Origin: Owenia fusiformis
Lineage: Eukaryota; Annelida; Polychaeta; Sabellida; Oweniidae
Assembly: GCA_903813345.2 (NCBI GenBank)
Contig: CAIIXF020000001.1
Coordinates: 6,141,098 to 6,205,097, forward strand
Length of the DNA: 64,000 nucleotides
Direction of reading: 5' to 3'
Shown piece by piece: positions 25,151 to 64,000 of this stretch (positions are counted from its first letter, which is position 1; every line of letters starts with the position of its first letter). The notes below the pieces were generated by a model, which worked only from the letters and a program-made list of their open reading frames with translations, had not been told where the DNA came from and searched no databases. Made by a program: the position numbers and the translations under genes.

Positions 25151-26194
25151 TTAACCCCAAGGATCCTCGTCGTCGGAATCCTCCTGAAAAACAATAAACA
25201 AATAACAAAATTTATGTTTATAAAATTACCCATTGTTATATAATGATTAACTTAGATACATTATGCATGATGGAACCTAATATGATGTGAGTTTTCAATG
25301 AAAACATTAAAACATGAGCTCGAATTCCCAATTGGACATTAGGACAATGTGCGTTTGATAAGGATCTCTTAGACACTTTGGTATTGCATCCACTATGTAA
25401 ACTAACAAAGATGATAACAATTAATTATGTATCCTCACCCAAGCCTTTTTCCTTCTAAAGGTAGCCCTTTCTTCCACCTTCTTTACTGGTTCAGGCTAAA
25501 ACGAAAAAATCAAGTGTATATGTGAGCACTAGAAAAAGGATTGTTTCAATGTTGAGCTTTAATAGACTAGATGCGAGTAGAAATAATCTTGATTTACGTC
25601 ATCAAAAATTCAAACTTCAGTCAAACTGATGTCATATTTGGAATCTACATGTAGAATTACATCTAGAAGTGTGGTTTTGAAGAGTTTATCAACTTTGAAA
25701 ATTTAATTGTCTTGGAAAATGGGACTTCTAGGTCGGGGGATTCCCCATAGAGCCCATGTTGTAAAATCACAAAAAGTGAAATATCTTTTCTAGTGTTGGG
25801 CAGATAATATTTTCTTTTACTGGGCATATTTTAATTTGTATAACTATCAGATACAAAAGAGTAATATGAAAAGTGAACCACTAAAACTGATGAATATTCA
25901 AGTTTAAGGGGATTTTGTAATACCATGCCATGTTATTTCCCCCGACTCAGCCTCCTGGTGGCGAAACTGGTAACTACCTACTCGCATCTGAGTAATTAAA
26001 CATGTTTAACACGTTGCAACAAGTAGTTTACTGACCGTTTTCTCTTTAGGTGGTGGCGTCGGTTCTTTCGGTGGAGGTGTTGGCTCTTTAGGTGGTGGCG
26101 TCGGTTCTTTCGATGGAGGTGTTGGCTCTTTAGGTGGTGGAGTTGGCTCCTTTACTGTCTCTGGTTCTTTCGTTTCCTCGTCGTCACTATCCTC
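25151..26194 (-). CDS. SH3BGR: SH3BGR-like C-terminal exons: KEPTPPP repeat exon and EDSDDEDPWG end
   Basis: Exon 26036-26194 (53 aa) starts EDSDDEE and continues into about five tandem KEPTPPP units (one KEPTPPS), an extended polyproline/PEVK-like segment. Exon 25439-25495 (19 aa) is a basic-W exon (RATFRRKKAW). Exon 25151-25183 encodes EDSDDEDPWG and the stop. The final exon is nearly the same as the internal exon 54903-54929 (EDSDDEDPW), so the C-terminal motif also occurs internally. Confidence 0.9.
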
Positions 26195-29100
26195 CTATGT
26201 ATATACGATGTTATCAAAATATGATGCCAAGACAACAGTACATAGTTGATGTGGTAAAATATAACAGCCCATACGAAATGATCAATTCTGACAATATGAA
26301 AACATTTTTCATATTTTGATGAACATGGATAGTATATATACAGGGTGGTCCAAAACAAAAACGCTCCAAAAATGAAATAATTTCTTTTATGCATATATAA
26401 TCAGCTTCATTTTTCATGTACAGAAACTACAATCTATGGTTGACAATGTGAGATCAAATTCATAACACAACATTCAATATCCTTCTTGTTGTGGTCAATT
26501 AAAAAATATGCCGACTTTTGAAAGAAAAGAAAATGTAAAATTTTCGTGTCAACCAAGTGGTCAACATCGTTTGTTTAAACCCATCACATTCTTTTGGCTT
26601 CTTGTTAAGCTGCATTTTGTCAGTATAGAGGTTGAGATCTTTAATGAGGAAGTGTCCCAGCAACCTTTAAGCCATCTTTAGGCATGGCTGCACCTTCTGA
26701 GTGATATTTTGGACACATTCTAAGATCATCAATGATATCACGATCACAAATAATCAATTTTGTGTAACAGACTTGATATCATATTATCATCCATATATTT
26801 TAGTTTATGCACATAACAAATTGGGTTGATAGGATGGGTATTTAAGAATATTACACTTTGAAAGGGTTTTGTCTTTTAGGGTCACCGTGTAGATGGTTAT
26901 AGCTATAATATCAAGAGCGAAATTGGCTCGGAAGGAATATTCCTTTAACGCAATATCAAATAGAAACTGAATAAACCATATGCAAAACATTACATGGATA
27001 TCCTATTTATATTGTCCAATGATCATCGCAATGGTCTCTTTGTGACATTATATATATTTTAATCAGACATATTTTCATGAATTAGTTATCACTGAAATAG
27101 AAGTAGAAGCAAAATAAGACAATGCATAAGCATGAAAAGATGTCACCTCCTTGTAAGTTGTTGCAAATGGTTAAAATGTTAAGTCCACTTATTTGTTGCC
27201 ATGGTAACATTTCACGTCAATGAGATTGCATTTGTCAGTTACAGAATACAGATATATGAGAAGTGCTTTAAGAAAAATAATCTGTTTTCATGGTAATATA
27301 TATTCATTGCCATGGTATCTGAACCGGTCAAAAACGTCAAAAATATGTTAAAAGTCGTAACATATCTAAATGTGTTGACAATAAAAGATTCCATGTGAAC
27401 ACTACTTCTTAAAAATAAATTATTGCAAATGGTTACATAATGTTACAGGTCTACTGATATGTTGACATGGTAACGTGCATTGGCAGAGATGTATCATGTA
27501 TTGGAATACATGAATCGTTTATAAATGTTCACAGTAAAACCTTGAGGTCAGTCTAAACAGTACTTGTTACTCTACTTCTTAAATCATTGCAAATGGTTAC
27601 TAAATGTTACACGTTCACTTCTTTGTAACAATTGTAATATATATTGGACAGAAATGTGTTGGAACTTATAACATGTTTATATGCGTTCACAGTAGACAAT
27701 TTGAAGTCAATCTAAATTGTGCTTGTTTAGTTATTGGAAGAATTTGTTACAGACGAACGCTAACCATCGTCCACAAAAAGTTGCAAACTATAACAATATG
27801 ACACCACTTCTGATGATGACATAAAAATGAGAAGAAGCCTTCCCGAAATCTACACGTTAGTATTTCTTATATTTCTTGTGATAAGTAACATAAAGTTTTA
27901 GCAGCGAAATGCAAATTATATATATAACCTGTAACTTATAATTGATTATACGAGGGCCATCCAACATGTTCTGTTTGTTAGTACCTTATGCTTTGGTCAC
28001 ATTTGCTCCGATTTTCACTACGGAGCCCGGCCGATTGAGTATTTTGTCCAAAACTGAATAGAATTTTGAGCAAAATACTCAATCGGCCGGGCGCCGGCCG
28101 ATGGATCGGAGCAAGTGTGACCAAGGCATTTAAGGGTAACCCATATCACTGTGTAATGACCTCTGCCTGTTTATGTGCCACATGTATAATATAGATCGTC
28201 ACGGATTTATCAAAGGGAGATTTTTCTATTGACAAATCAATTTCACATTTTATTGGAGGTGAAGTTTCAGAATCTTCTTTTTGTGTTAAATGGGAAAAAT
28301 TGATCTGTAGATTTATTAGCACAACACATTAGCACAACACATGGCATTATGAAATGTACTGTAAATGCAACAAGGTCGTTTGGATTTATATTGCACGAGG
28401 ATTTATATTGGCTGATGCTTATGCACCCTTTGGATAATCCACTCTCTCAAAGTTTATTGTAAACTTTCTGACGACTTGTTTTATCTTCAAGACGACTTCC
28501 ATAAACTGGAATTTACAGAACTCCCCTAATTTCTTCAAAATAGACTGATCCATTACACTAACCTTGAGCTGCCATATTCTTTTTATACGGGAAGCTTATC
28601 GTAACCCTAAGTCTACACATTTTCCTACATATCATGAAATACGGTAGAGGTCAAAACACTAACCATTACATCATTGTAAATTAAGTTACCGTTTCGTTTA
28701 ATTGACAATTCGTCCAACGTTTTGAAACTTTCAGTAATTATTCTCTTTTTGAATAGTGTGGCGATCTGTATTAACATTTTTTTTAAATTCCAGACACCAA
28801 AGGCTAAAACATATTTTGAACGGCCATCGTATTGAAAAGTTAAAGCTCTATTATTAGATATTTGGATAATATTAGTAGATACACATTCTTTGGGACGTTT
28901 GTGATTAGATATATCTAAAGCAATTAAATTACAACTAATTAAATAATTTGTATTTTGATGTTACTTTGTTATATTTATCTTACCCATGGTTTCTTCTTTC
29001 TAAACGTGACCTAAAACGTTATAGTTTGAACAAATCATCATTAGATATTATATTAAGTAAATCAGAGAGTCGAATCAATTATTTTCAATAATACATTTCC

Positions 29101-32100
29101 TATTTCCTTTCTAAGAAGTGCTGATATTATTAGGTACCTTTTCTTCTTCCTTCTTTTCTTCTTTGGGCTCTTCTTTTACATCTTCCTCCTCATCAGAATC
29201 GTCCTATATGAGAAAAGGATTAATATAATGATTTCAGCTATAGAGCTGGTTAATATGATATCTGACCGAGATTACATGTAAATCACTTTTATTCCAAAGA
29301 GTGACACACGAGGATAACTCCAACTAGCGCATACCATTTTTCTCTATACCATTCCCCTTTTCACATTTTTAGACCTATCATAAATAAATATTTGTTTGAA
29401 GTTTTAAGGTACAACAAACATACTACATTTCCATAAATATATGGGGAACCTACTCGACAGTTTACTGTTATGGTAAGTACAAGGGTTGTTCAAAAGGTTT
29501 TACACAAATATATATTATATCTCACCCAGGGATTCTTCTTTTTAAATGCAACCTTTTCTGGTTCCTTATCCTACAAAAAATGACAAAGGTCAGAACTAGA
29601 AATTCTATTGGCGTTTCAATCCTGTGATATCAGACAACATGAATGCAATTTCATTTTATGGAATTAATAATACCACATGTCTTCACATACTTCTTTGGCA
29701 TCGTCCTTAGTTTCTTCATCCCGTGGTTCCTTGTCTTTAGTTTCATCTTCCTCATCGGAATCATCCTGCATTGTATTGACAAGCTATGATTATAATACAT
29801 GGTGCTGATTAGGGTATTCACAAAAAGCTAGATATATTTCATCTTCTGGCCAATCGATATGCAAAATAGTTAACCTATCATTAAAGAAGCACGGGTGATT
29901 AAATTCACTCGATTTCTGTATACTGATTTCTGTGTTGTCCGTTACCTAAATGCATTGGTTCAAAGACTGTGAACAAAATCAATGGTCAGTGCATTAAATC
30001 TCAAAGCATTAGGTCTATATCCTTGAACATAGTTGGTTAGTTAGTTACAAACAGGAAAATCATATTGAAGTTAAACAAATTTGAGATTTTTCTGTGCAAT
30101 CTATTATCTTCTCGTTTAGAAAAAATACCAAAACGGGTTACCCATGGTTGCTTCCTCTTTTTGAATATAGTCTTTTCGGGTTCCTAAATCAAAATAAAGA
30201 ACACATGCAGGTGAGTACAATCCCAAACACTCTCATGCTTATGGCTATATGCTGAATTCCAGAGAAGAATTATGTGGAAATAATACCCAAGTCATATTGC
30301 ACATAGAGTGCATTTTATTGTAAATACTCTTTTTGCTGCATATTTGGCAACTATGCAACAGTATGGGTATTTACACTACCCTTCATAGGTTTGGCAACCT
30401 TACCTCCCCATTGAACTACGTGTTAAAGCCTCGTTACGTTTGAATTTTTATTTACTTGCGATGAAATAACTTATAATGTTGATGGAAACCTAACTTGACT
30501 TTATTTCCAATACCTCCAAATTTTCCCATTTTTCCTCGATTACAATAAGTCGAAAATTGATGATGGGAAATTATGGGTTCGGGCAAATGGGAAATCAGGA
30601 TATCTATTCAGTAAAAGATTCAGCAAAAAATATTTTTATATAGAACTATCTAACTTTTTTTAACTTTGTTGATCCTGAAGAAAGGTATCATTTTTTTTGT
30701 TAAATAAATTTAGCAAATTCAATTGCCTACGTATAACTTGTTTTTTTTGCAAGGACTCAGAGTGATGGATATTCTGTCATATGACTTGCGGTAAACCTAC
30801 CATTTCCCATTGGTTAACATGGGAATGTCGTTTTTCAAAAATTTATCAAAATCATAATGTTCGACCTATTGTAATTGAGAAAATTTGGAGGTATTGACAA
30901 TAAAGTCAAATTACGTTTCCATCAATAGTATAAGTACTCTCATTGCAGGTTAAGTAAATAAAAATTCAAAGGTAAAGAGGCTTTAACATGTAGTTCAATG
31001 GGGGAGCTAAGGTTGCCAAACTTATGGAGGGGAGTGCATATTTTTACTCTGTATTGCTGGTGGTATCGGGAGAAACAGCACACATATTTTTTTAATAAAC
31101 CATGGCACACACACATCACATTTTAGAAATTGTACTCAGAAACAGAATTCCATGACTCATATATATATATATATGCGTTGTCTAAAACATAATATGCGTT
31201 ATATAAAATCCATACATCGACATAGTGTGCAACGTAATCTTAGAAATAATTTCCCATATACTGAATCTCTTTTGCCCCCACCCATAGATGTGAGCTTTCA
31301 AGATTGATAATATTGGTAGAGATGCAGTTCATATGATCTAACACTCGATAAAGGATTGGTATCGATATGGTGAGGAACACACGTTTCTATTAAACCAGTC
31401 ATTAAAAAAATGTTTACACATCGTCAATTTAGTGGTCATGTTTTGAATGGTAACAATATAATTTGAAATATTTTTTCTCAATATTGTTTTAGAAAACACA
31501 TCGGTCACTTCTTTTGTTCCTGGTATCATATGCTGCAACTGCACTAAAAACAAAAAATGTTAACAAAAACAGTTATATAAAATATATACAAATAATTTTC
31601 GCATTAAATTGTCGTCAATCAGTCAACATTAAACAAAGGACCGTGTTTTGTAACAGAATGTTTTCAATAATTGGTTTAAGAGAAAAATATTGCTGAATAC
31701 AATTCACCATACCGATACCAATCCTTTGTCATTAACCTACACATGACTACAAATACTTCAATAGACGACCGTGTGATTTGTTCATTTACACATTAAATTG
31801 AGGAGAAACACAAAGCAGGTGATAAAACAAAGACAAGTCATACATTTTGCATATATTTTAGATTATGCAAAATGATGGCTCAGAACTACAAAACAATACA
31901 CCAACGTTAGATTCCTATATACTCGCTACTTTGATTTTTACGAAGATAAAAATCACATCATTCATGCCAAAAAAAAGAATAAAAAAGAGATGCTAAAACG
32001 TTTTTAAAGACTATCGACTATATACCAGGTATATGTTAAGATGAAACGAATGGTGGACATGTAACAATTGCAATTGACAAGAGAAACTAGTGAATATTAG

Positions 32101-35100
32101 CAGGAATATGATAAAGGACATTTATTTTAAAATGGAGTGAGGACAGAAACTACGCCAGTATAATGGGTAAATTCGTATAAGTGTTGTAATATAACAGGGG
32201 CGGATCTGGGAACCAACAAGGGGGGGAGGCCCAAATTTCAGGTCAGAGAAAAAATCGTCCGCGAAATTTTGGGCCCTTAAAACCCAAAAGTGGGCCCAAA
32301 TTTTGAAATTTTGAGGCCCATTTTCTTCAAAATTTGGCCTGAAATTAAAAAATAAGGCCTGAAAGGCCCAGTAATGACCAAAGAGGCCCACTTTTTGGGG
32401 CCTGAAGGCCTTTTTTGGCCCCAAATTTTTTTAGGGCCCAATTGTTTTTTTCTGGGCCCACCCAAGGGGGGGGGGGGGGGCCGGGCCCCCAGGCCCCCCC
32501 TAATCCGCCAGTGTATAAACTGACTAGAGAAGTTCGTAGTTTCCATGAAGTAACCTACTAAAGGAGATACTGCTTCGTATTGGTTGTCTACATACCTTTT
32601 TAGATTCCCCCTGCTGCTCTCCCTTTACCTCTTCTTTTGGTAGGTCATCTTTGGTCTCTTCATCATCCGAATCGTCCTGCAATAAATGAACACACCGTTA
32701 AATATCTGAATATACGATGAACACTGGATTATGATTCTGCAAACGGTTCAGCTCGTTAGACGCTATATAAATAAGTAATTTCTTATCAATTTTAATAAAT
32801 CAGCGTCTCGATGAATATACTTGTTTTTCTTCTTTTATATAAATAAGTATATATACTGTTTACATAGAATATAGCTCACTTTAGTTTGTAACTCAAATGT
32901 TGACATCCAAATACAATGACCAATATATTTTTAAAGTACGGATCTACAATAAAACAATTACCCAGGGTTCTTTCTTCTTTTTGAACATGGTTTTTTCTGG
33001 TTCCTACAGTAAAATTTACGTCAATAAGGCAGAGGTAAAGCAGCTAAACAAACTGACATTATATGCCTATACCACCAAATGTGATTTCTAGTAAATTGTA
33101 CATTTTATAGTAATCAATTTGGTGAAATAGATATAATATACATGGTAGGAAGGTTGGCATAATGTAAATGTATAAACATTTTAAGAATATAATTTACATG
33201 TATACCCAAAGCAAGTTACAAATCATGATCAATTGATTGAATTCACACACGATTTTAATGTAAGGCAATTAATTATACTTCTAAGCTATTTTATTGAAAA
33301 TGCAAATGGTTAAACGTTATGATACCGATTGATTTCAAAAATCTTTGTTCATAGCAATCTATTTGCCTTTTTTGGTTCCTCTTTCGGCTCATCCTTAATT
33401 TTTTCACTCGGTTCCTCATTTGACTCCTCTGCTTTTGATTCATCCTCTTTCTCCACATCTTCTTTTGCATCTTCTTCATCAGAATCTTCCTGTTTTTGCA
33501 CCAATGTAATACATTTTACAAAGTGATTATGATTACTCTCGAGTGCAGTATATATAACCAAAGCATGGAATAATGTTTATAAAATATCAAACATATTAGA
33601 CTAGAATTTGCATGTAGAAAAATCAGAAATCATCTAGCGAGCATCCAAAACGGTGATTACTGATTACTGAGTTAATGTATATCTGAATGGGTGTTGAGAT
33701 ATACCAAGTAAATAGATGTCAAAATACGATTTTTGGTCAAATAAAATATTGGAAGTATTAAAGATTTGAAAATTAATTCCATGTGTTTTCCATTTTATCT
33801 TTTGCTTATTAATTTAAATGGGTTTATAAGAGTTCATCAACTCTTTTGGTGAGCTCTGTGATATGTGGGGGTCAAACGTTGTTTATCTGGAATAAGGCCA
33901 AGATGTTTGTAATGATCGACTCTATGGAAAACATTATTTCCAATTTTAAAGTTATGAATTTAGAATTCACATTTTCCTGGGTTTGAGAATATTATGTTTT
34001 TACTTTTAGAAGCCTTGGAATTCATTGTCCATGTCTCAGACCATTGTAAAATTTTGTTATTTTTTGTTTAAATCAGAATATAGTTGGTATAGAGATACAT
34101 CATCCGCATACATATTGCATTTGCTTGACAACGTTTCAAGGGATCAGTTATATATATCGGGAAAAGTAGAGGTCCAAGAGCAGAGCCTTGTGGAACACCA
34201 GCATTTATATAAACGTCCTCACTTAAGACAGACTCTTGACCAGCATTGATAAATTTTGTTCGTCTCATAGAAAGATATGACTCTAAAAGCGATAGAATGC
34301 TTGGGTCAATTCCATAAGTAGTAGTAATGAATGAGGTTAGGTGTCAAACGCAGCAAAAATATCTAAATACATTTCCCTTTGGGGAAAGTATCATTTAATT
34401 TATTATGAAGTAAATAATGTTTAATAATTGAGACTGGGTACTATGCCCTGGGTAAAAAAATTAAGAGTTCACCAAATAAGTCTGTGATCGACTTAAAAAA
34501 ACAGGTCGGGATAAAAATGGTGATGATGATGCAGATATTCAGGGCCAGTATTGTTGGTAAACCAAAATATTCCCCAAAGTGATTTAGCAATACCAGAAAT
34601 AGTGATCTGTATACATCCATATATAAACGAAAGTACTCATAAACGATCAGACGAAAGTGATATATGTAAATCATTGTCAATATGATTTCTTCACCTAATC
34701 CCCACTTACTATTTTTAATATTAACATGGTGGTCCACAATGCATGTTATCATAAAACAACTAGTTAAAAGATGACGAATATTTAAATCAATTATTAAATA
34801 AGTGTCTTTCGACAACATTGACCTTGGTATATCTCGTAAATCGTTTATCATTATAACAGGAGTATTTCGACCACTGCTTCCTCTGCTCGTTAGATGATAC
34901 AATGTTTTTGCCTTTATGGTTTTCCTTTTAGTAGAATAATCTTTATACAATATTGAGGTACAATAAAAATTTTACCCAAGTTTCTTTCTTCTTTTTAAAC
35001 ATAACTCTTTCTGGTTCCTAAAGCAAAATGAATAACATTAAGGCAGGAGTAAGCGAGTAAGCGATCAAACGACATATGCCTATATTACCAAATGTTATGC

Positions 35101-38100
35101 CTGTACTTATAGATGCCTTGTACTTATAGATGTATAAACTTTTTAGGAATATAATTACACTTCTAAGCTATTTTATTGAAAATGGAAATGGCTAAGCATT
35201 GTGCTACTGATTGATTATCTATTTGCCTTTTTTGGTTCCTCTTTCGGCTCATCATTTATTTTTTCATTTGGTTCTTCCTTGGGTGTCTCTGCTGCTGGTT
35301 CATTTTCTAAGTTCACATCTTCTTCATCAGAATCGTCCTGTTTTTTGCACCAAAGTATATGATAAATTCACTTTACAATTTACAACATTTTCCTCTACAT
35401 ATACATACATCGTGTTTGAATAAGTTTTACAAAGTGATTATGAAAGAGTTTTTATTTGTATTATGAAAGCCGAAGTTCATATCAAACGTTAGCAAATTTA
35501 CGAGGGTAGGATCGTATCATAAGCCATGAAACTATTCTATTATTTTATAGAAATATCACTAATTTACTGTTGTGATTTCTCTCCATGAATTATGTGGTAG
35601 AAATAATTTGATAATAGCTAGAAAGGCTTTACCCATGGCTGCTTCTTCTTTTTGAATGTAGTTTTCTCAGGTTCCTAAAGGAAGGGCAGAACAAAAACAG
35701 GTATTAAACAAACGGGTGTGCAAGGATGGAAGGTAGACTACCTCAAAAGTCTTACTGAAATACGATAATATTCATACTGAATCGTAGTTTATAGTCTATT
35801 ATACATGGTTCATAAATTAAGTAGATTAAACAGAGGAATTTTGAATACTTTTTTAACTTCCTCTTCAACTTCTATTTTCTCTTCTTCTTTAGTTTCCTCT
35901 TTTGCCTCTTCTTTCGTTTCTTCTTTTACTTCTTCTTCCTCATCGTCAGATTCATCCTATAATGGCGTGTTGATATACAGTGCATTAGTTCCTGCATATG
36001 TAAGTTTCGAGTATCTCTCCTAGTTCATATGCCTAACACTAATATCAAGTGTATATAATACATATATTCGTTGGTGTAGTTTTAGTTGGCCAAAACTGGT
36101 GCTAACGCATTGAATTATTAATGCATGTTTATGGAGTTTATATATTGTTATGGATATGTATTGAAGACATGTGGTTGAGTAGAATTAAGATTGATATGAA
36201 TATTATAAGACTAGTTATGAAGCAAACATTATAGGAAGGATAATAGAAATATCACTAATTTAGTGTTGTGATTTCCCTCCAAGGATTATGTGGTAGAACT
36301 AATTTGATGATAGCTAGAAAGGCTTTACCCATGGCTGCTTCTTCTTTTTGAATGTAGTTTTCTCAGGTTCCTAAAGGAAAGGCAGAACAAAAACAGGTAT
36401 TAAACAAACGGGTGTGCAAGGATGGAAGGTAGACTACCTCAAAAGTCTTACTGAAATGCGATAATATTCATACTGAATCGTAGTTTATAGTCTATTATAC
36501 ATGGTCCATAAATGAAATAGATTAAACAGACGAATTTTGAATACTTTTTTAACTTCCTCTTCAACTTCTATTTTCTCGTCCTCTTTAGTTTCCTCTTTTG
36601 CCTCTTCTTTCGTTTCTTCTTTTACTTCTTCTTCCTCATCGTCAGATTCATCCTATAATGGCGTGTGGTTATACAGTGCATTAGTTACTGCATATGTAAC
36701 AGTTTCGAGTATCTCTCCTAGTTCATATACCTAACACTAATATCAATTGTATATAATGCATATATTCGTTGGTGTAGTTTTAGTTGGCCAAAACTGGTGC
36801 TAAAGCATTGAATTAATACATGTTTATGGAGTTTATATATTTTTATGGATATGTATTGAAGATTGAGTAGAATGAAGATGGATATGAATATTATTGGACT
36901 AGTTATGAAGCAAACATTATAGGAAGGATTATGACTAACTGTAGTTTAAATATGTAGAACATTAAAATATGACAGCACATTTACTTATCACGAATGACTA
37001 GTGTGTTAATAATGATCTTACCCATGGCTGCTTTTTCTTCTTAAATGTTGTCTTTTCTGGTTCCTGAATACGAAGTAAGGTATAATCATGCTTTGTAAGT
37101 TGGGAATTGTGGTGCTTATCATGTATTACAAATACTTTTTATTACGTAAATAAACCGTTTTGTAAGTACATAATACAACACACTTGTAACACAAATAAAT
37201 CATTTGACAGGGTATACATCCTTGTCAAATAAAACGGGTCGATGCAAGGTGAAATAAATTCAAATCAAGTCTTAATTAATTCTCAATTTGAATTTATTAA
37301 TTTCATTCCCAGGTCTATTGGATAGTTGTCAACGTCTTTACTTTTTCTTTGAAAATGATAGTGTCTTATGACTTTGGTCTCACCTTTTTCACTTCGTCTT
37401 CAACTTTTTCTTTAACCTTTTCTTCTACAGTTTCCCCTTCTTCATCGGAATCGTCCTAAAATGTATTATAATTAGGATAGAACGTTAATTCAATCGGAAG
37501 TATATATAGAATTGGTCAGTCAATCTTAGATTAAAACTCTGATTCATTCATTCAGCAGAGCAATTAAAATATTTATTTCATGATTTATATATATACGAAA
37601 TAGAAAACAAAGACAATATGCAGACAAATTCACATCATACCCACGGCTGCTTTTTCTTCTTGAATGTTACTTTTTCAGGTTCCTAAAATATTAACACATG
37701 CTGGTGAGAGGGGTTATCACATCAAAAGTTCTTCAATTATAATATCACTCATTGTTATACTGACACCTTGGTTAGTTTGATGCTATTTAATTTGGCGAAT
37801 TGAATTTTGACACTTGTCAGCTACTTACGTCGTCGGATACAGTCTATGATCAATTCATGCATTTCTAAAACAGTTAAGCTCCACCATCAATCTTATTTTC
37901 TAAATGGCAGATTAGGGTCTGTACTATGGTCTTAGAATTTTAGTAAAAATGTAAATTGACTTTAATTACAAAACTCGCCAAAATAAAGCATATGGCAAAT
38001 TAACGCAAGTAGCAGTATATAATCCTATGGTGCAACAATATGATTTCAAGATGATATAATACAAGTATTATATATATTGCTCTAAATTATACTCTGTTTT

Positions 38101-41100
38101 TTTTGCATACATGTAATACTTTGCATTGAAAGCATGAAGTATGAATGGTGAATACACTGGGGGGAAATGGTATAATTGTACATCTAAGTTATATCCAATT
38201 ATAACTTGAACAATCGATATCCTCTTGGTATTACGACAAAAGATGGTTGAAAAGTCATGAAATTATAAAATCTAGAATATGGTCAAACCAGGCAAACACA
38301 ACGCAGTCAGACTAATAATAAACAAAAACAACAGGCAAACACAACTTGATAATACACTTGAGCAATACATATTGTATGGCAATACAGATAATTGCAAAGT
38401 TATAAGAGCAAAACGATACATACCTTCTTCCTCTCTGACTCTTCCTTCTTTTCTTCTTCGTCAGAATCCTCCTAAATAATACACAAACACCTGGATATAT
38501 CAATTGCTAAATTTACAAAACCATTTTTTATTCCAAGCAATATCTAACTGAGATACATACAAATTTCACGTTGTGGGATAATTCCATCCAATGGTATTTA
38601 TTTGGTTTACTTTTTTTCTTAATAACAGATGGTTAATTAAATTGACAGACATGTTATTGTACTGATGGACTTTGTTTAATTGTTGTTTTCTGTATGCGTA
38701 TGTATCACCAAAGCATATCGTCATACCCACGGTTGTCTTTTCTTCTTGAATACAACTTTTTCAGGTTCCTATAAGAATATAAACATGCAGGTGAGAACGG
38801 GTGCTAAAACAAACCACTTCAAAAAATCACACTTTAAATATATGATATCTACAGTGTGGGCCAAAACATCGATAATTTTGTTTTGCTATAAATATCAACA
38901 ATGGTCTCTTGGAATCTTATTCTCATTAAAATGAATAGAGCAGTATTTAAATGACAATAAGAGTCCTAACCTTGTTGATCTTCCTTGCCACAAAATAGAT
39001 CTCGAAGACTAGTTTTCAAGTGGCCAACATGCAGAATTCCCCTTACCACATTTTGAATTGAAACTTTCAATTCCCTTTTTGTCTGGAATATGTTAATCAC
39101 CTCAACCAATGTGTCCCTCTGACAGATTGTGTACGAATTTAATATCAAACGATTATTTGAGGCATGTCCAATATCAATTGCAAGCTGCAATGTCAGCTTA
39201 AAATTTATTGCTGCTTTGAATAAATTAACCTGACAAATATTTGATTTTAGACCTATACCGTTTGTTAACCAATCTCTAAATATTTAAAGAACAATTGCAT
39301 CTAGTATGAGAGTGAATGTTTATCCGTCTGGAAATGTGCATATTGAAGTATTAGGTTCAACTAACACGGACATATTTGGAAAACTTACTTAAAATATTTC
39401 GTCCTACATCCATCACGCCTAACCATCGCGTAGGTAGGCGTCACTGTACAGCGTCAAAAAATAGCGGAGTACAGTTTTCTGTACGGTGACGCAAATTAAC
39501 TGCTTTGAAGTTAAAACTATGACATGGGTTTAAAAAAGATTAATTTGATGAAAACTAATACGATTTCATGTGAAATAAAAACAGCATTCTCTTAGGAATG
39601 GTTTTAACTTTGTAATTATGATAAATGTTTTACGAGCACTGTTCGGATTTTTTCTGAGTGAATCGGCCCACATAATCGACCAGAGTGAAAAAATGTGTTT
39701 TTTCACATTTTGTTTGGTTATTATTTTCCCTGCCGTCTGAGAGTATGGATTATTTTTATGAGAATATGTATTTGCCGACTAAACATTTTAGAACGGGCGG
39801 AGATTCAACAAACAACCATTCATTATGTATATTTAAAAAATATAAAATCTGTACGGTGACGCATCAGCTGTACATTGACGATTCATTATAATTTGTGAGA
39901 AGTAATATAAAGAATTCATTATTTATTACTTCAAATCGCATAAGTTTTGGTGTGGAAGTTCAAATGTTGATCCAATCAAGTATCCCTCGTATACATGTTG
40001 TCAAAATGATCAGTGAAAGTTACTGCAGTCACTTTTGCATTTAAGATGGCGGACAGGAAGTGTCGATCTCGATATTTTTAGTTTTCATCGAATTCTTTAT
40101 AGTTGGCGTCATGCTTTGATGAACTAAATGAGACTAGGCTTTTATGAAATGGAAATCATTTGTTTATATATAGTGCATGGACGCTACAATTCAACGATAT
40201 CTTCCATCACTTAATGGAAGGTTACTGGAAATGTGTGATACGGTAGGGGTCATGAAACCAAAAACTCAGTATATTTGTTGCTATGTTATTATTGTTTTAA
40301 AACAAGGGATGTCACAAGTAAATCTCATCTTGCACGTGTGACTTTTAGGATGAAAGATGCAATATCTTGCATGGGGTAAAGATGGCCATGTAGGCTATCT
40401 TTGTTAGTCATATGAGAAAAGCCTGGTCTGTATTTCAAATGATATCAAAGCATTGCGTCAACTTTCAAATAGTTAATTCCATGAAAACTAAAAATATCGA
40501 AATTAATACTTCCTGTCCGACATCTTAAATGCCAAGGTGACGGCTGTAAGCTTCGCTTGATACTTACCAGTGATAATGTATATCTGACGCTTCTTTACCT
40601 CTTGTTCGAACAGTAAGCTTAGAGTTGAATGTGTTTCAGTATTTAATCCTTGTTATCAGACATAAGAATTGATCTTTTCAATGTTGAATGGGATACAACA
40701 TTTGAACTTATGGAATCTTAAGTTAATACTGAGGTCATGTATTACACTTCATGAAATCTAAGGAATCGTCACCGTACAGCAGATGCGTCACCGTACATCT
40801 TTTTTAAAAAAATGCACTGAATGATTATTTGCCGAATATTCATCTGTTCTAAAATATGTAGATAACAAATACATATTCTCATAAAAATAATCCATACTCT
40901 CAGACGACAGGGAAAATAATAACCAAAAGAAAAGTGAAAAAACAACATTTTTCTCTCGAGTCGATTGTGTGGGCCGATCCAGTAAGAAAAAATCCGAGCA
41001 GTGCTCGAAAAACTTTTATCATAATTAGAAAGTTAAAACCATTCCTAAGAGAATAAGAGTGTTTTTATTACACTTGAAATCGTATTTATTTTCATCTAAT

Positions 41101-44100
41101 TATTTTTTTAAAACACCCATTATAGTTTTTGCTTCAACTCAGTTAATTTTCGTCACCGTACAGAAAACTGTACTACTGTATTTTTTGACGCTGTACGGTG
41201 ACGCCTGCTTACGCGATGGTTAGGCGTGTCCATAGGACTTCTTCAGTTTCTGTTGCGGGGAATTTGAAAATTTAGAGGGGCGTCACAAAAGGTGGTATGT
41301 GGGGTACATTCCTCTGTCTCTGTTAGAAATGGCCTCTTTGATTTGTCTTTTATGAAAATTGTCCTCATTGTAAGTTTTTCAAATATGTCAGTGTTAGATG
41401 AAACTGTAATACTTCAATTGCAGAAGTGATCTCTATATTTCCATGATTTCGTTTTTAAAAATCGATATATTATAAAGACTTATTGCCAAATGCAAAATGT
41501 CGACATTTTTGGCTCAACCTGTGCATTCGAATGGAGCTACAATATATTCCCAAGATGATCTGATAAAACTTCTACACCATATAGTTACGACTAATCAAAA
41601 CTAAAAGTGTATATAGATACTTGGCACATATTGTACGCATTGTATGCATTTCAGATATTCAGATATGAATGTCTATTGTCATCATGCACGAATTCTAAAA
41701 TTATGTCACACCATTTGCAATGTCAATTCACAATTTGCAGGAGAAACTCACGAAGAGGTATTTGCAAAAGATTCATACCAAAAATAAACACAAACCAAAA
41801 GACAAACCAAAACTACGTAAATATCATAACATATTGTACACGATTAGAAAACAATGACGAACATACCTTCTTTTCTGGTTCTTCCGTCTTTTCTTCGTCG
41901 TCCGAATCATCCTAGTTAAAATCAACATATGAATTAATCAATGAAAAACATATTTATCAATGTCGACCGGGTTTTACAAAGATTTTGTTTTTTCCTTTCT
42001 ACAACAAGCTCACCTTTAGCAATATTCATTTAAGATTCAATTTTCATATTCCATGACGTACTTTGTTCTAGTGATGCTGAGATATTCAGTATTTAGCTTT
42101 GATTTATCTTTACCACATGGTATGTACAGTTAACTGAATTTGTTTTTTCAATATTGGTAAGAATTTAGCTTATAATACAAGTAAATATGTGATATATAAC
42201 GTCATACCCATGGTTGTCTCTTCTTCTTGAATGTAGCTTTTTCAGGTTCCTAAAATATATGTAAACATGCAGGTGAGGTGAGGTGAGGTGCAAACAGAAT
42301 ATTTGTTCCTTCAGATGAAATATTTCTGTATGGTTCTATGATACTATATTCAAGCAGGATCTGACTATTCAAGACTATGTTGCGTAAATAACAAACTATA
42401 CGAGGGTGTACATGATTGTTGATAGGCAGGAGTGTCACAACAAAATTGATTCATAATTAAACTATACACTACACTATTACACTTCACTTCACTATACTAT
42501 ACTACACTACACCACACTAGACTACACTACGCTCTGCTATACCATGCTATACTATACTAGTAATACTATACTTTACTCACTATGTCATATCACACTACAC
42601 TATACTACACTACGCTCTGCTATACTATACTATACTATACTCACGGACTATTCTATAGTTTACTGTACTCCCGGACTATACACTTTTATACTATATTATA
42701 CTAACTTTACTATAGTAACTTTACTATATTTACTAATTTGATAACAAGAATTAAGTCTTGATCAGTCATCAAGACTTAATTCTTGTTGTCGTATCATGTG
42801 CGCAAAATGATGAACTCTACACTCTTAAAAATTATTACTTGGATTTCCTTATATTGAGAAATTGTACTACCCATTTTAAGTCAAAAATTACTTAAATAAT
42901 CTTTTAAGTAATTTTTAAGTAATTCATTTATGGTGAATTTACTAATGCAAGGAGAGAAATTGAAATACTTACTGTAGTAATTGTAATACTCATTTACATA
43001 ATTAAGCAATTAAAAAACTCAAAATGACAATATAAGTTAAACCTAAGTAAAATGAAGTAAAACTAAGTATTTAACTTTAAGTAATTTTTGTACTTGGGAA
43101 ATACTTGGGAAATACTCAAGTAATTCATTTTTAAGAGTGTACTATGTGCACAACATTTGAATCAAAAACGAGATGTTGAAATCGGAAATACTGAAATGGG
43201 GAACACACGGACAGATACAATTTCATAATGAACTTGTAATATGTACATTGTACCAGATAATAATACATACCACTGCACAGAATAAGGAAAACAATCATGA
43301 ACATACCTTCTTTTTCTCTGGTTCCTCTGTCTTTTCTTCTTCATCTTCGGAATCCTCCTGGAAAGACAAAGGTTAATCTATTTTGATGATTCAACGCATA
43401 ATATCCATTTGAGAGTTTGAAGTTTTTATATTCAATTTATCACTATTACATGCCTATGAACGTATTTGATGTACTTTGATGAGAAATCATTGAAGTGATA
43501 ACGAAGTTACAAACATAGCTAGTATGCTTGTATCAATTAACCATAACATCATACCCACGGCTGTCTTTTCTTCTTGAACGTAACTTTTTCGGGTTCCTAA
43601 AACATATGTAAACATGCAAGTGAGGAGAGGTGCCAAAACAAAACAACTTCATATAAAATATCACACCTAATAATACATGGAGCGAAAGCCACAAAGCTAT
43701 CAACTAATAATAAAGGGTTGTCTCAAAAATGTACCAAAAAGCTCAGATATATACCAATTGATAATTTCAGACATTTTGCATGGTTTTCTCCCCAACACAC
43801 AGTTTTTAGTTCAGTCTCGCTTTTTTGATGCTTTGACCCTTGAAACACGACATGAGACGACCAGGGAAAATATCACGGGGCGTCAAATCTGGAGAAAGGG
43901 GAGGCCCTCACAGTGTCTTTATTTTGTATACAAAGAGATCACTGACGTTCTGAAAGATGCATTGATAGAAATTCTTGCATGGCCCTTGCGTTGTGTGATG
44001 GGGCTTGTGTGATGGGGCAAAATGATCTTATTTGGATATCAATCGGTCTCCAAGCTAACCTGGAAGGTAGAATTACCGAACCATTTTACGATAATTGACC

Positions 44101-47100
44101 TGGTTCTCCTGCCGTCGTCATACCCGAACTTCTTTCACTGGGGTTATTTGAAAGAGCAATTTAACGCTTAGCAAAAAATAGTACAACTAAAGCCCATATA
44201 TTTGAAGAGAAATCCATAGCATTCGACCGGAAACATCATCAAATGTGATGAACAACGCAACAGGATTGTCATCTAATTGTGAGAAGGTTACATAGACCAT
44301 GTGGTGTAAAAAGTAAAGGGTTAAAAAGAGTTAAAAACTGTATATAGGTGAGAAAACGTACATGCTTTGGCTAGATGACATTGCAAAAAGTAAAAATATT
44401 GATTGTTTTATTTGTTATAATTTTGAGAAATTACCAAACGATTATACAGTATTGTGACTTGTACTAAATACTTAGTATGTGAAGTATTAAAATATGTTCA
44501 TGTACGTACATGTAAGCTTTTTGTAAATGGAGCTTCAAATTTCCTAAGTTCATACACGTTTTCAAATGGAATCAACAATAGGTTATATAAAGGAAATTTA
44601 CATGAAGTCAAATAGGTATTCTATGTTTATAATTATACCTCTATGCTTATGATTTTAAGAACTTCATGAGAAAATGTGAGATGATTTGCATATACAGGGT
44701 GATCACTAAGTTCTTGGAATTTCATTATTTTTTAACCAATTTACTTGAAATTGTCAACATAAATGTGAAATGTAATTATGATTTGAATAAAACAATCTCA
44801 ATGTAATATGATTTCACAATGGATAATTATTGTTACTAAAGCAACATGACATGGCGTCGTGGGTCAAACAAAAATTGGATTCTTTTTTATTTTACTTGAT
44901 CCAAAAGTATGGTTGATAAATACCTATTTGGTAGACATAGTTCTGTGATTTTGTATTCTTTCAAATATTTTTAACTACAGTGTCTATAGAAACATCTGTA
45001 TTACAGTGATATAACAGTGTACTTTGCTCTATTTTCTTATCTTTCATCAGACTCTCCGAGTCACAACCAATGGCTCAAAAGAGCGGGGAATTATCTTCCA
45101 TTGTAACAATGCTCCTTCGTACAACTCAAACTGCCCACACTAATCTTGAAGAACTAGGTTTCACACAGCTTGCTCATGCCTCATATTCCCCAGGATGAAG
45201 TATCATTAAGCTCCACTACATTTGGGATGTTGAAACATCATATGAGAGGTCATCAGTTTGATTCCAATAAGGGGCTGATTTCAACAACTTTAGCCAATCT
45301 TTGAGAAATAACAAATGGAGGGCTGGAAAGCGCCTCTATGGACTAGGTTTGTCAACAACGCATGTGCATTCAAGCTTATGGAAACTATTATAAATGAAAA
45401 TATCCTTTCTACATTGAATAATACTTCTAAATCAATGACTAAAAAATGACTGTGCTGCTCGTCGTGCAAGTAGCTAGTTTGAAGTCACCATGAAGGCAAG
45501 ATGGATGTTAAGCAGGAAATGTTCGTATTATCAGTCTTAATTTGCTGACTTGCGGACAGCTTTTACTAGTTTTATAATCACAACCAAATAAATTGTAGAA
45601 GTGATATGTACACGAAAGATTGTGTGTCAATTCAAATTTACACACTATACAATTTCAACTTAATTGGTTGAAAAATATTGAAATAACAGATCGATTCCCA
45701 GAACTTAATGCTCACCCTGTACATTATTTGAAATCAAATGCTAGTGTAAAAGATGCACAGATAAATGATGACATTAATTCAGAGTAATACAGTCGTTCAT
45801 TAGATCCCACTAACGTTTTATGAGAATTTGAAGTCATGGCTAATAAGAAATATCGCGTCTGAGGGCAGAGGCGCAAGGCATACTCGTACTTAGTACTTGG
45901 TATTGGCACAAACAGTGTACTTACAATTGTCTACTTACTAGCTAGTGGGGCGGGGATAAAGCAAAACTCCAAAAGGAATAACTCCCCTAACACCAATAGA
46001 TTTGTATGGTGCAACGATATTTCAAATTCTAATATAAGTGTCTAGACAGTATCATTTTACACATATAATATACTTTGACTTGAGCAAACAATGGGAACTA
46101 TCTACCTTCACAACATGAATTAGACATGCATGAACATTATTGAAACGGCGAGAACATTGTGACATTAAGTATGAAAACAAGTACCACAAACAGATATTAC
46201 ATTACACATCGAAATTGATAAAGACAAGTCACGAACAATGCAGTGAATAGATCGTTTACATACTTTTTTTTCCTCTGGTTCTTCTTTCTTTTCTTCTTCG
46301 TCACCAGAATCCTCCTAGATTATACACACATACAATTAACTAGTTGGGTAAAATCTTATTTGTATAAAGTATTAATTTGAAATACAAATGTATGCCTTTG
46401 TTAACTTGATAAAATTACCGGCAAAGCAGAACATAAAAATATTATACAGGAATTTACACTATACAAAAATACCGTAGTATATTCAGTCTGTTGGTATTTA
46501 ATATTAGAATTTTTCGTTTCCTTTGATATTGTTCCGTGAAGATGCGTTTGACCTAATAGATATATATCGAAGTAAGTTAAGTGGTCTGCTTTAATAATAT
46601 TACAACAAACTCACCCAGTCTTGTTTCTTCTTTTTGAATACTGCTACTTCTGGTTCCTTGAAAAGAAAGACTTAGTGTAACATTTAACTTTTACACCATA
46701 TCAGACCTTTACAACATAATTTCTAATTACCAGGCACCTGAAATTGAGTTTATTAAAACAAGTGTTACTACTTTATCATGTATCTATTAGATGAAATGAA
46801 AAGTGGCCAAAGAAACATAAACAGGGAGAGCCAATAAAATTGGAACATTTTGTAGAGTGACAGGGCAAGACCTCTACATGTTATTCTAGAATGCGTATTA
46901 TAACATTGCTATATCAAAACCCTCACCTTAACTTCTTCCTTTTTCTCATCTGCCTGAAATCACAAATGTATATTGGTTATTATGGTCAATACAAATTTCA
47001 TCAAAGATCAGTAATATCGTTGTATAATAAGCTTCAAGACCTCCCTCTGGTTTACGATATCTGTTTATCCCAAGTAAGCGGATTTTTGTCCATAAAGCAA

Positions 47101-50100
47101 CTATACCTATACAAAACAAAAAGTAGAATGTCTCTAACACCTTGAATCAAGAAGATTAGCATAATGATATGTCGCAATGTCGGATAGGATAATGATATTA
47201 GGGGAAATCTTGAAATTATGGATAAATTGATAGGAAAAAATATATGACATACCTCTTCTTTTTTGGCACTGCTCCCCTGGAGATGTATTATGAAAGGAAG
47301 AGTAGATTATAGACAAAGAAAGGCTTAAAATGAATATGATATGCGCGACACACATATACTGAAGCTTGTAAATAGAAGTATGTGTGCCAAGAGATAAGAA
47401 AAGGGATAAGTAAAAGTCATGGTATTATGAAAAAGGAACGATTTGCATAGAAAATATGTAATAATATTAATAATTTCTGTTTTTTTAATGTTTTTCATGT
47501 ATGGTAGACCATCAGGCCATCAGGGTGTCTTCCAAATGATGTATACTAATATATAAGATTCCGTACTTAGGATTTTACTTCATAATTATAACATAACATT
47601 AAAATTGAATCCAATCATCCAACTTCCAAACTCACCCATGGGTCATCATCTTCGTCGCTCTCCTCCTGTGTAATAAGAAGAAGAGCTCGATGAGAATATG
47701 GAAAAGGTATTGCTTCAGTTGCTACTGACCAGGTTTGAGAGAAAATAGTTATGAATATTTGAAACGATGTAAAATCGTATTCGAGTTGTGAACTATTGGA
47801 CAGGTAAAGTACAAGAGTAGATGAAAAGCAAGTAAGTAAGAGAAGATGAAAAGTAAGTAAGAGCGAATATAGAGGGATATATAGAAGAATATAATGTACA
47901 AGCAAGTGCCTTACCCAGTCTTTTTTCCTTCTGAACAAAGGCTTTGGTGGTTCTTTCTAAAAGTCAATAATATCATACTGTATATGAAGACCATATTAAT
48001 TCACACAACTAACTTTACGTAGGATGCAGTTAGAAACTCATGAATAGTATTACATTGCGAATACACATTGAAATACGTTCATACCTTTTCTTCCTCAACT
48101 TCTTTCTTTTCTTCCTTAACTTCGTCTTCATCCTACCAATGAACAATTTGACGTGAAACAGACAACTGCAAATTAGCACCTTATTGACATAACCCTTCAT
48201 AAATCTAAATATCTTGTTAAGTGTCATATGATTAAGAACTGGTATACTTCGAGTTTTATCATAGTACTCTGCATTATAATTATAATGACTATCTTTCCAG
48301 GCAAACAACTTGTACATAACACACGCCATGAAGTAAAAATGAACACATCATCAATACACCATACCAATACAGTACCAGATAACATATGGAATCACTATAC
48401 AGCAACTAACAATATAACACGTTGCAGCACTGGACATGGACATGCACTATTATTCCATTAATACATTGCATTACTATGCAGACAATGATAAAAGCTAATT
48501 TTTTAATCAATCCAAAAGTTTAGATTTTTGTCCTAAAACTACAAATGTATCCAAAAACTATAAAATGGTATTAATCAGTAAAAACATCGTAAACTCATTG
48601 TTATACTTCAATCATACAAAACAACCATTATAACGTCAAGCTAACATGCTAACCTTCGTTTCACTTGCCGGTATATCCTCGTCATCACTGTCTTCCTAAA
48701 TAATCAGCAGTGGAAATCTTGTTTTAGAAATGAATTTGACACACCGTGCTCAAAATTTAGCCTGTTTTGTGCTTTTTAACGCATGTATTTTGCTATTTCT
48801 TTTAATTCTAATGAGTCTTATAATACTTTCATTTTGAGCTGATATTTTGATGATATTGCAACTTTAATGTAACTATTGTGATTATGACCTACAGGGATTT
48901 ACCATTTACGATCTACAGGGATTTACTATATACTGAAAATCCCAATTAGAGCATTTCTATAATATTTTTCATATTAGTAAATCTTACCCAATCGGCTTTC
49001 TTCTTCTTGAAGACAACCTTCTCAGGTTCTGTCTGTAAAATTGTGCAATAAAATGATGAATCCACTTACCCTTCCAATCTATAAAATGCACTAATAGTCA
49101 TGATCATGCATTCGATGCAAACTACTAGCGAACCACTTCAACTAAGAAATGGAAATATGATTCAAGGTGCAAAAAACTTTTTATCATCTAAGTGTCACAA
49201 TCACAGATACAGAAGCAAAACTCGAATTTAGCAATGAATGTTCAATTGATCCAATATGTAAAATTTCATTTTCTAATTTATAACGATCATCTTACCTTTT
49301 GCTCCTCTTCTTCCTGAAAAAAGAAGTAAATAAGTGAGAACAATAGTCAAAATGTTCGAAGATAAATACACAACAAGCACAGCAAGAAAAGGAAAACAAA
49401 GACATGGAAAATAAAATAACATTATCCCAATCTATGATCGATCCAATGCACAATTAAGATTTCCTATTGAAATGAGGTTACTATTAGTATTATCACCACA
49501 TCTTGAAAACTAAATAATAGTCACTCGCCCTAGGCCTGGACCAGGATAATGACCATCATGGGCTGCCAATGTTGCCCTCAAGTCAATAAAGTATAGTGAG
49601 AATAGTCATGATAATAAGGTGGTGATAATGGCTGACAATCCCCCTAACCAACCAATCAGGAATCATAAGTACAACACAAAACCGTAGTTATAACAAAACA
49701 AGTTAAAAATCAAATTAAAAATATATTTCGCCAGAACTCTTGACATTTAAAATGAAAACTCACAAATTTCAAACTTTACAATATGTGATGTTATGGTATG
49801 GTAGATATTATTATTCAATATCATGTAGTTTTATTTGGAGTGTAATGAGTGAAGCTTATCCGCCATGATTTATGCATGCCAACACAAAACCGTAGTTATA
49901 ACAATACAAGTTGAAAATCAAATTTAAAATATATGTCGCCAAAATTCTTGACATTTAAAATGAAAAACTGTGCTTTCAAAATTTTTACTCATAACTTTCA
50001 AATTTTACAATAAGCGATGCTATGGTATTGTAGGTATCACTCTTGAAAATACATTATGTAATGAGTGAAGCTTATCCGCCATGATTTATGCATGCCTAAA

Positions 50101-62396: not shown

Positions 62397-62875
62397 CTAA
62401 AATGAACATGATATTCTTTTAATTCATCGACAAAATGGAGTCAAAGTTGACATCGAACAAGACACCCAACATACCAATAACCTTGACAAATCTCGCATTG
62501 ACCTTGACCTTATTTCTAAGTCAGCTAGACGGACATTAGGAATTTGAGAAATTCCAGAAATACAAACAAAGGCATAGAGCATTTCAGTTCTATGCCCATG
62601 CTTGATCTATACTGCATTTGACCGACGACGGGAGTAAGTGAATTGCATGTACTCAAAAATGAATTTTACAGTAACTGAATAATAGCATGGATATCCTTTC
62701 TGTACATACTTATCAAAAATACAAGTTCTGGGCAAGGATTAAGTGCACAGCAGCACTCCACTGGAAATGTATTCTGAGTCGGATTAACCTAATGACCCGA
62801 ATTATGAAGTACTCGATCAATTGTACTTTCATTCGAAAGTAGCATACGAAGGTTGATCATAAAGTTCTCATAATA
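62397..62875. other. Intron of the SH3BGR-like gene, no exon seen
   Basis: The missing first coding exon was sought here and not found. A tract with short direct AAGGTCA motifs (about 62470-62510) has an acceptor-like and a donor-like edge but does not encode the expected SH3BGR N-terminal strand. Confidence 0.55.
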
Positions 62876-63958: not shown

Positions 63959-64000
63959 TATCTATATAATTTCTTTATGTTTCAATATAATTTTCACAGA

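Follow-up and report, generated by a model that had tools for sequence, protein, structure and literature searches.

Members of the SH3BGR/SH3BGRL family are described as proteins of 10-20 kDa, and vertebrate SH3BGR has a Glu-rich C-terminal extension (PMC12827327). In the same account SH3BGRL proteins cap the pointed ends of actin filaments; their C-terminal stretch contacts the last actin in simulations and lies near tropomodulin in an overlay. Mammalian SH3BGR is reported to be confined to striated muscle, where it lies at the sarcomere (PMC8541172). The PEVK region of titin alternates positive PPAK and negative PolyE motifs, the latter with about 45% E (PMC8553726), an arrangement thought to aid elasticity; splicing sets its length, and interactions with F-actin are described (PMC8553726, PMC6469411). 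Schistosome micro-exon genes (MEGs) have most of their coding sequence in very small symmetrical exons that can be skipped in frame; PMC4350168 describes them as apparently limited to platyhelminths and connects the encoded proteins with secretions and glands. The tryptophan-acidic (W-acidic) motifs of kinesin-1 cargo are typically flanked by D or E and often have L or M two residues before the W (W-2), as characterized in PMC5450233. Here we describe a stretch of 64,000 nucleotides (nt) of the genome of the annelid Owenia fusiformis, referred to as the window (contig CAIIXF020000001.1, positions 6,141,098 to 6,205,097), which holds an SH3BGR-family gene whose long tail is modelled as an array of basic and acidic microexons that form a repeated W-[DE]-[DE]-S motif at their splice junctions.

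This invertebrate gene lies on the minus strand, and its tail runs on from the domain exons. Two exons of the SH3BGR domain, both set by eye, were located at 62211-62396 (MRNQQTII...FNGEHFVG) and 61733-61855 (NFEAFFEAVE...PPAEE), and both are matched by Pfam PF04908 and by PDB sequences. Exon 1 (MGEVEES...LKVFISLTTGNME) was placed by eye at C1:6206406-6206296, about 1.3 kb past the window, as an SH3BGR-like pick among 15 candidate frames from a loose pattern; it was missed by the pattern on the neighbouring 8.9 kb and by a stricter donor pattern on 62397-64000 and the same stretch. The choice is independently supported, because the Pfam SH3BGR score rises from 78.5 bits for the two window exons to 95.2 bits (cut-off 21; E=2.8e-27) when exon 1 is included, with positions 2-98 of the 99 in the profile covered. 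Regarding the PDB, the sequence matches are SH3BGRL-family chains (seven distinct sequences at E<=0.01). The top match is 8iah chain Z (E=1.5e-14), which is SH3BGRL-2 at the pointed end in a spectrin-actin complex (PMC12827327). In the 8iah alignment the pointed-end contact positions I39, A/T40 and R46 correspond to I, S and R here; these three, given as I39, T40 and R46 in section 8 of PMC12827327, were the contact positions compared. The modelled protein has 954 amino acids (aa), to which exon 1 contributes 37, the two domain exons 103 and the tail 814. Judged from the sequence, the locus is a single SH3BGR-family gene with a near-complete thioredoxin-like fold and an 814-residue tail.

The tail model has 48 exons, from 60092 to 25151 on the minus strand. 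All of them are in phase 0, have a length divisible by three, are preceded by AG and have no internal stop; the median size is 42 nt, and 38 of the 48 have 51 nt or less. The 50 exons that the model places in the window all share this length rule, the AG acceptor and the absence of stops; their donors are 47 GT and two GC. The model is ab initio, built from genomic sequence with splice matrices trained on the obvious exons; in addition to the domain exons, the tail exons 47276, 26194 and 25183 and the full extent of both exons with a GC donor, five in all, were set or added by eye. The basic exons typically read EPEKxxFKKKKxxW and alternate with acidic exons of the form [DE][DE]SD[DE][DE]. Over the whole tail, P, E, V and K make up 65.7% of the residues (68.8% with A), and E alone 29.5%, while in the 19 acidic exons of the junctions E reaches 35.6% and D 16.7%. 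Of the 44 exons that begin with the first W exon, 19 carry a net positive charge and no two of these are adjacent, an arrangement matched by none of 100,000 shuffles.

The junction motif was also sought with a scan free of any splice model, using the patterns [FLIVYM][KRN]{3}.{0,4}W ending at GT for the basic half and AG followed by [DE][DE]S[DEG][DE][DE] for the acidic half. On the minus strand of the window it found 19 basic W-ends and 19 acidic S-starts. Neither half occurred on the plus strand of the window, and both strands of ten further loci of the genome (L003-L012; 98,005 bases) were likewise free of them; 100 first-order Markov resamples gave a mean of 0.37 W-ends (maximum 2) and 0 acidic starts. 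Since the scan finds 19 of each half and the controls almost none, the array is real. It extends from 56.2 to 25.15 kb, and a spliced junction reads, for instance, FKKKKQPWDDSDEE. The original prediction, made from the letters of the window alone, had proposed an SH3BGR protein with a phase-0 microexon array of 20 W-ending basic exons and 19 W-[DE]-[DE]-S junctions. The Pfam score bears out the family, and the 48 stop-free tail exons and the junction counts bear out the array, in which the 20th W exon precedes EEEEQK. That the motif is present only after splicing, and that the exons are skippable in frame, likewise holds as a fact of the sequence. The range given for the array, 25151-46656, was too short: 14 of the 19 junctions fall inside it, and the other five, together with the 20th W exon, lie upstream at 47.9-56.2 kb.

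Of the 19 basic exons, 15 were aligned (56227, 35674, 29010 and 25495 were left out; 29010 is without EP), and their E, P, F and W do not vary. The motif serine is followed by D or E at +3 in 19 of 19 junctions and at +1 in 18, and a serine with an acidic residue at +3 is the consensus of CK2. Position W-2 is Q in nine junctions, K in four, A in three, E in two and N in one, with L or M in none; W-1 is P in 11 and D or E in six; and W-3 to W-6 hold three or four K/R in all 19.

The copies were compared in order to assess selection. The 14 basic exons with a full 14-codon core (56227, 47956, 29570, 29010 and 25495, of other lengths or spacing, were left out) have a mean pS of 0.778 and pN of 0.151, and for codons one to six of the acidic exons, all 19 of them, the values are 0.785 and 0.149. 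These are simple difference counts over short exons and do not come from a fitted codon model. The introns flanking the same 14 basic exons are identical at 0.29 and 0.31 of positions vs 0.275 from base composition. The motif serine is written TCN in 16 junctions and AGY in three. Silent sites near saturation, a conserved protein and an intron identity near chance together indicate that purifying selection acts on the tail protein and, within it, on the W|[DE][DE]S junction on both its sides; pN/pS is about 0.19. The copies appear to be old on average, with some recent ones. Among the latter, an acidic and a basic exon lie in blocks that are 93-96% alike at a spacing of 688-698 nt (D4, D7, D13), and 35.3-34.9 kb is 75-85% alike to 33.5-32.9 kb (D8, D9, D14). 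To judge by these blocks, the array grew at least partly through duplicated acidic+basic exon pairs, a unit that leaves the W junction intact. As to splice-site context, G stands at 43 of 47 tail exon ends and at 43 of 48 starts, and the last residue of the 47 exons with a donor is W in 22 (the 20 W exons of the basic array plus two DPW exons), K in 20, E in four and T in one. Splice context alone is no explanation for the W, because exons in the same G context end in K, E or T.

We tentatively read the product as an actin pointed-end fold that carries a PEVK-like tether with W-x-x-S docking sites, its length and motif number being set by exon skipping; by analogy with the described systems this is possible, though short of probable. 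The SH3BGR fold would bind the pointed end of the actin filament, as its SH3BGRL relatives do. The tail would leave the domain on the C-terminal side that touches actin near tropomodulin in simulations, and if attached there it would begin at the filament end. It would be a putatively disordered polyampholyte of alternating charge, working as a length-adjustable tether or spring in the manner of titin PEVK. The repeated W-x-x-S-D-E-E docking sites, to go by their conservation, may be switchable by CK2-type phosphorylation, and exon skipping might adjust length and the number of motifs, with differences between muscle types or between stages as the most natural case. Several observations weigh against this reading. 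The hexamer UGCAUG, which we take to be the RBFOX site, is not enriched overall (12 observed vs 9.4 expected) and was for this reason rejected as proof of regulated splicing; four basic exons (43596, 42249, 38768, 30183), copies that share descent, have it 21-26 nt upstream. The tail has a net charge of -124, so that a plain electrostatic actin tether is disfavoured. Alpha-actinin is a marker of the Z-disc, near the barbed ends. The co-localisation of rat cardiomyocyte SH3BGR with sarcomeric alpha-actinin (PMC8541172) is therefore a poor fit to a pointed-end site in muscle. Finally, the pointed-end work, as presented in PMC12827327, covers SH3BGRL, -2 and -3, not the long-tailed SH3BGR.

The invariant E, P, F and W of the aligned basic exons and the acidic residue at +3 in every junction would also fit a phospho-regulated docking array for another reader of basic-W-acidic sequence, such as a chaperone, an Arp2/3-type partner or a kinase, in which valency and not elasticity would count and splicing might be constant. 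W is likewise paired with acidic residues in a stretch of the p23 tail and in the acidic ends of WASP-family proteins. A PDB sequence search with three junctions, however, gave one match at E<=10, a Bcl-2 chimera (E=0.24) that is not meaningful, and identified no partner; we consider this explanation rather unlikely.

It is also somewhat unlikely that the tail is a constitutively spliced acidic extension of fixed length, an inflated version of the SH3BGR Glu-rich tail with exons skippable only formally and no regulated isoforms. This would be in keeping with the Glu-rich extension of the vertebrate protein (PMC12827327), with the lack of UGCAUG enrichment, and with the donors in the splice-matrix path, 38 of 44 of which score at least 4 on matrices trained on the same exons. 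However, six of the 44 score below 3, and two exons with GC, weak GT or last-exon options leave room for isoforms. These are the homologous acidic exons 35337-35227 (DDSDEED...KEEPKK) and 33489-33367 (EDSDEED...KEEPKK), each with a GC donor and a weak in-frame GT inside (35317 and 33457, respectively). Read on (35337-35177; 33489-33259), they end in EPKKANR and EPKKANRLL before a stop, and an AATAAA-type signal lies 50 nt past the GC in the first, and 72 and 108 nt past it in the second; about 0.29 such hexamers are expected per 150 nt here, so the last-exon signal is weak. Their predicted form is uncertain among GC-AG introns, shorter exons and alternative last exons that truncate the array.

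Less likely still would be an actin-capping protein whose docking array, of the form basic-W | acidic-phosphoserine, is split over introns in such a way that splicing counts the sites: each kept exon pair would add a site, loss of either half would remove one, and the number could run from 0 to about 20, with titin-like elasticity between the sites. The number of partners bound at the end of a filament would be tuned in this way.

The junctions also recall a multivalent transport or endocytic scaffold, in which the junction peptides bind the TPR domains of kinesin light chain, or the DPW copies bind the appendage domains of AP-2. The cargo motifs of calsyntenin and SKIP read W-D-D-S, and DPW is an AP-2 appendage motif. 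Here two acidic residues and a serine come after the W at 19 junctions, six of which have an acidic W-1 as well. With several WD motifs in a row, transport was greater than with one (Farias et al. 2015, cited in PMC5450233). In contrast, against the motif characterized in that source, L or M is found at W-2 in none of the 19 junctions, and a basic block precedes the W in all of them, two points that the original prediction had itself noted; DPW accounts for three of the 23 W in the tail, not enough for it to define the array, and Pfam is blank on the two tail stretches searched (221 of 814 residues). The kinesin light chain reading is weak and the scaffold as a whole quite unlikely, although invertebrate TPR domains that tolerate such motifs are possible; by analogy, the actin biology of the SH3BGR fold together with the PEVK-like charge offers a better frame. 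Neutral exon duplication, with the W/acidic recurrence left by young copies or by the splice-site G at exon ends (TGG|GT, AG|GA), would agree with the recent tandem copies (96% over 300 nt) and the G counts but is highly improbable, being largely refuted by a protein kept at near-saturated synonymous sites and by the exons, two internal DPW exons aside, that share the G context and do not end in W.

The tail exons are given below in the direction of the gene, all on the minus strand; where nothing else is said, W exons were found by both the motif scan and the splice-matrix exon path, and the other exons by the path. The tail opens with the acidic exons AKEEKEEDGEEK (60057-60092, with a weak donor, GTAGAA), DAVDGEEKEDEEK (59416-59454) and EEKEEVDEEEAKKETEE (57674-57724), followed by GKEEVKDEKKEEVEEKK (56735-56785). 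The first basic W exon, EPPKPTFRRKKEW (56189-56227), is joined to the acidic EDSDEEQKEEK (55768-55800), the second, PKEPEKAVFKKKKADW (55562-55609), to EESDEEEKEEEK (55355-55390), and the third, PKEPEKAVFKKKKAEW (55144-55191), to the acidic DPW exon EDSDDEDPW (54903-54929), after which comes GSSEDKKEDKE (54054-54086). The exon ENKEETEK (51196-51219) then precedes the 20th W exon, a variant of net charge 0 recovered by the path (EKEAREKAGW, 50859-50888), whose next exon, EEEEQK (49296-49313), has no S. Just past this variant exon, an AG-preceded frame at 50720, FKFWGGYPPVTISTSKHGLPKRRFALTYFTSSQL before a stop (FKFWGGYPPV...), was not accepted as an exon; it is a possible alternative end, and AATAAA/ATTAAA is absent within 260 nt. 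The basic exon TEPEKVVFKKKKADW (48988-49032) is followed by the acidic EDSDDEDIPASETK (48654-48695, weak donor GTTAGC), and KEPPKPLFRRKKDW (47915-47956) by a second acidic DPW exon, EESDEDDDPW (47636-47665), with GSSAKKEE (47253-47276, by eye) and ADEKKEEVK (46927-46953) after it. Between these two pairs lies a candidate acidic exon, DEDEVKEEKKEVEEEK (48085-48132, donor GTATGA), which was not picked by the path and stands outside the 48-exon model; its addition would leave the W counts unchanged.

Downstream, basic and acidic exons alternate. The pairs are EPEVAVFKKKKQDW (46615-46656) with EDSGDEEEKKEEPEEKK (46264-46314), EPEKVTFKKKRQPW (43555-43596) with EDSEDEEEKTEEPEKKK (43307-43357), EPEKATFKKKRQPW (42208-42249) with DDSDDEEKTEEPEKK (41867-41911), EPEKVVFKKKRQPW (38727-38768) with EDSDEEEKKEESERKK (38424-38471), and EPEKVTFKKKKQPW (37641-37682) with DDSDEEGETVEEKVKEKVEDEVKK (37384-37455). 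The basic exon EPEKTTFKKKKQPW occurs twice, at 37022-37063, where the acidic DESDDEEEE...EVKK (36545-36652) follows, and at 36329-36370, where the acidic exon at 35849-35956 follows, a recent tandem duplicate of 36652-36545 whose neighbouring blocks show the similarity and spacing noted above. The W exon at 35633-35674, found by the motif scan, is a recent duplicate of 36370-36329, 96% alike over 300 nt, and is joined to the first of the two acidic exons with a GC donor; EPERVMFKKKKETW (34976-35017) is joined to the second. The array continues with EPEKTMFKKKKEPW (32962-33003) and the acidic DDSDDEETKDDLPKEEVKGEQQGESKK (32596-32676), EPEKTIFKKRKQPW (30142-30183) and DDSDEEDETKDKEPRDEETKDDAKE (29691-29765), DKEPEKVAFKKKNPW (29526-29570) and DDSDEEEDVKEEPKEEKKEEEK (29138-29203), and VTFRKKKPW (28984-29010), which lacks the EPEK start, and the proline-repeat acidic exon EDSDDEETKEPETVKEPTPPPKEPTPP...KEKT (26036-26194, donor GTCAGT, by eye). 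The last basic W exon, PEPVKKVEERATFRRKKAW (25439-25495), precedes the terminal exon EDSDDEDPWG and its stop (25151-25183, by eye), with an AATAAA-type signal at about 25030. The terminal exon nearly matches the internal DPW exons 54929-54903 and 47665-47636, each of which precedes an exon that starts with GSS; either an ancestral C-terminal exon may have given rise to the internal DPW exons, or the terminal exon may derive from them. A further shared element was seen upstream of the four basic exons with a UGCAUG: TGCATG at 43618, 42271, 38789 and 30209 lies inside a common CTCAC(C/T)TGCATGT stretch, a candidate branch-point or RBFOX-type element.

The genome has four further places with an SH3BGR match in Pfam. 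In 10-20 kb around each of them there is no contiguous W-acidic, acidic-S or DPW motif (one, L009, has 954 N), nor does a basic W-end stand at any GT donor there. A whole-genome protein search whose query was a composite of 84 tail residues gave six matches, all within the array gene described here, the best with E=0.134, among only nine candidates scored, and exons this short score weakly in such a search. As far as searched, the tail array is found nowhere else in the genome. Among the titles listed from the open PMC literature none describes such an SH3BGR tail, an absence weakly supported given that several of the searches were dominated by unrelated papers. Two of the SH3BGR-domain places, at G000:C11:25832736 and 25854133 (L004-L007), are 21 kb apart and form a probable tandem pair; the six-frame match at the second is interrupted by three stops and may include intron sequence.

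Other sequences were noted within the window. Two copies of one repeat element lie in introns of the array, at 30371-31003 and 51588-52432, with blocks 86-95% alike. Similar elements rich in G- and C-runs, with CTGGCGGATCC-like ends, occupy three introns (32200-32520, 56400-56600 and 59840-60030) and look by eye like short transposable elements, and apparent remnants of non-LTR retrotransposon proteins, also recognized by eye, lie in the introns of the gene at 52600-53550 (+), 57972-58364 (+) and 34050-34300 (-). Outside the gene, 16825-19764 (+) has, by eye, exons like those of an SLC3A-type amino-acid transporter heavy chain with an alpha-amylase-like domain.

Should the array be used as its sequence suggests, a short binding motif would be made only by joining two separately skippable microexons, and its count and spacing would be under the control of splicing. 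It would also suggest that a titin-PEVK-like microexon tail of alternating charge arose independently on an actin-capping fold, providing a small, testable system for the question of whether repeat exons are selected for their sequence or for their length. On a more modest reading, that of a greatly expanded SH3BGR tail under strong selection, the gene gives the Glu-rich tail of SH3BGR a conserved repeating unit.

Set beside the described systems, the gene resembles the SH3BGR/SH3BGRL family in its PF04908 domain and in a Glu-rich C-terminal extension like that described for vertebrate SH3BGR, and differs from the 10-20 kDa members described in its 814-aa tail, its 48 microexons and the basic-W-acidic repeat. 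It shares with the kinesin-1 W-acidic motifs of SKIP and calsyntenin a W followed by acidic residues, in tandem, but in all 19 junctions W-2 is neither L nor M and a K/R block stands from W-3 upstream. As in the schistosome MEGs, the coding sequence is mostly in small symmetrical exons; here, however, they belong to an SH3BGR gene, which sets it apart from the MEGs as these are described. Titin PEVK and the tail have in common that their exons are small and in frame, that basic blocks alternate with acidic ones, that both are rich in P, E, V and K, and that both show tandem duplication. In contrast to titin as described, no titin domains were found here, the model has no PPAK string, the basic unit is mostly 14 aa vs 26-28 aa for the PPAK repeat, and the tail has the conserved W|[DE][DE]S junction. 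We know of no PEVK counterpart of that junction. By analogy, the tail would be PEVK-like in its mode of action at most, and not a member of PEVK.

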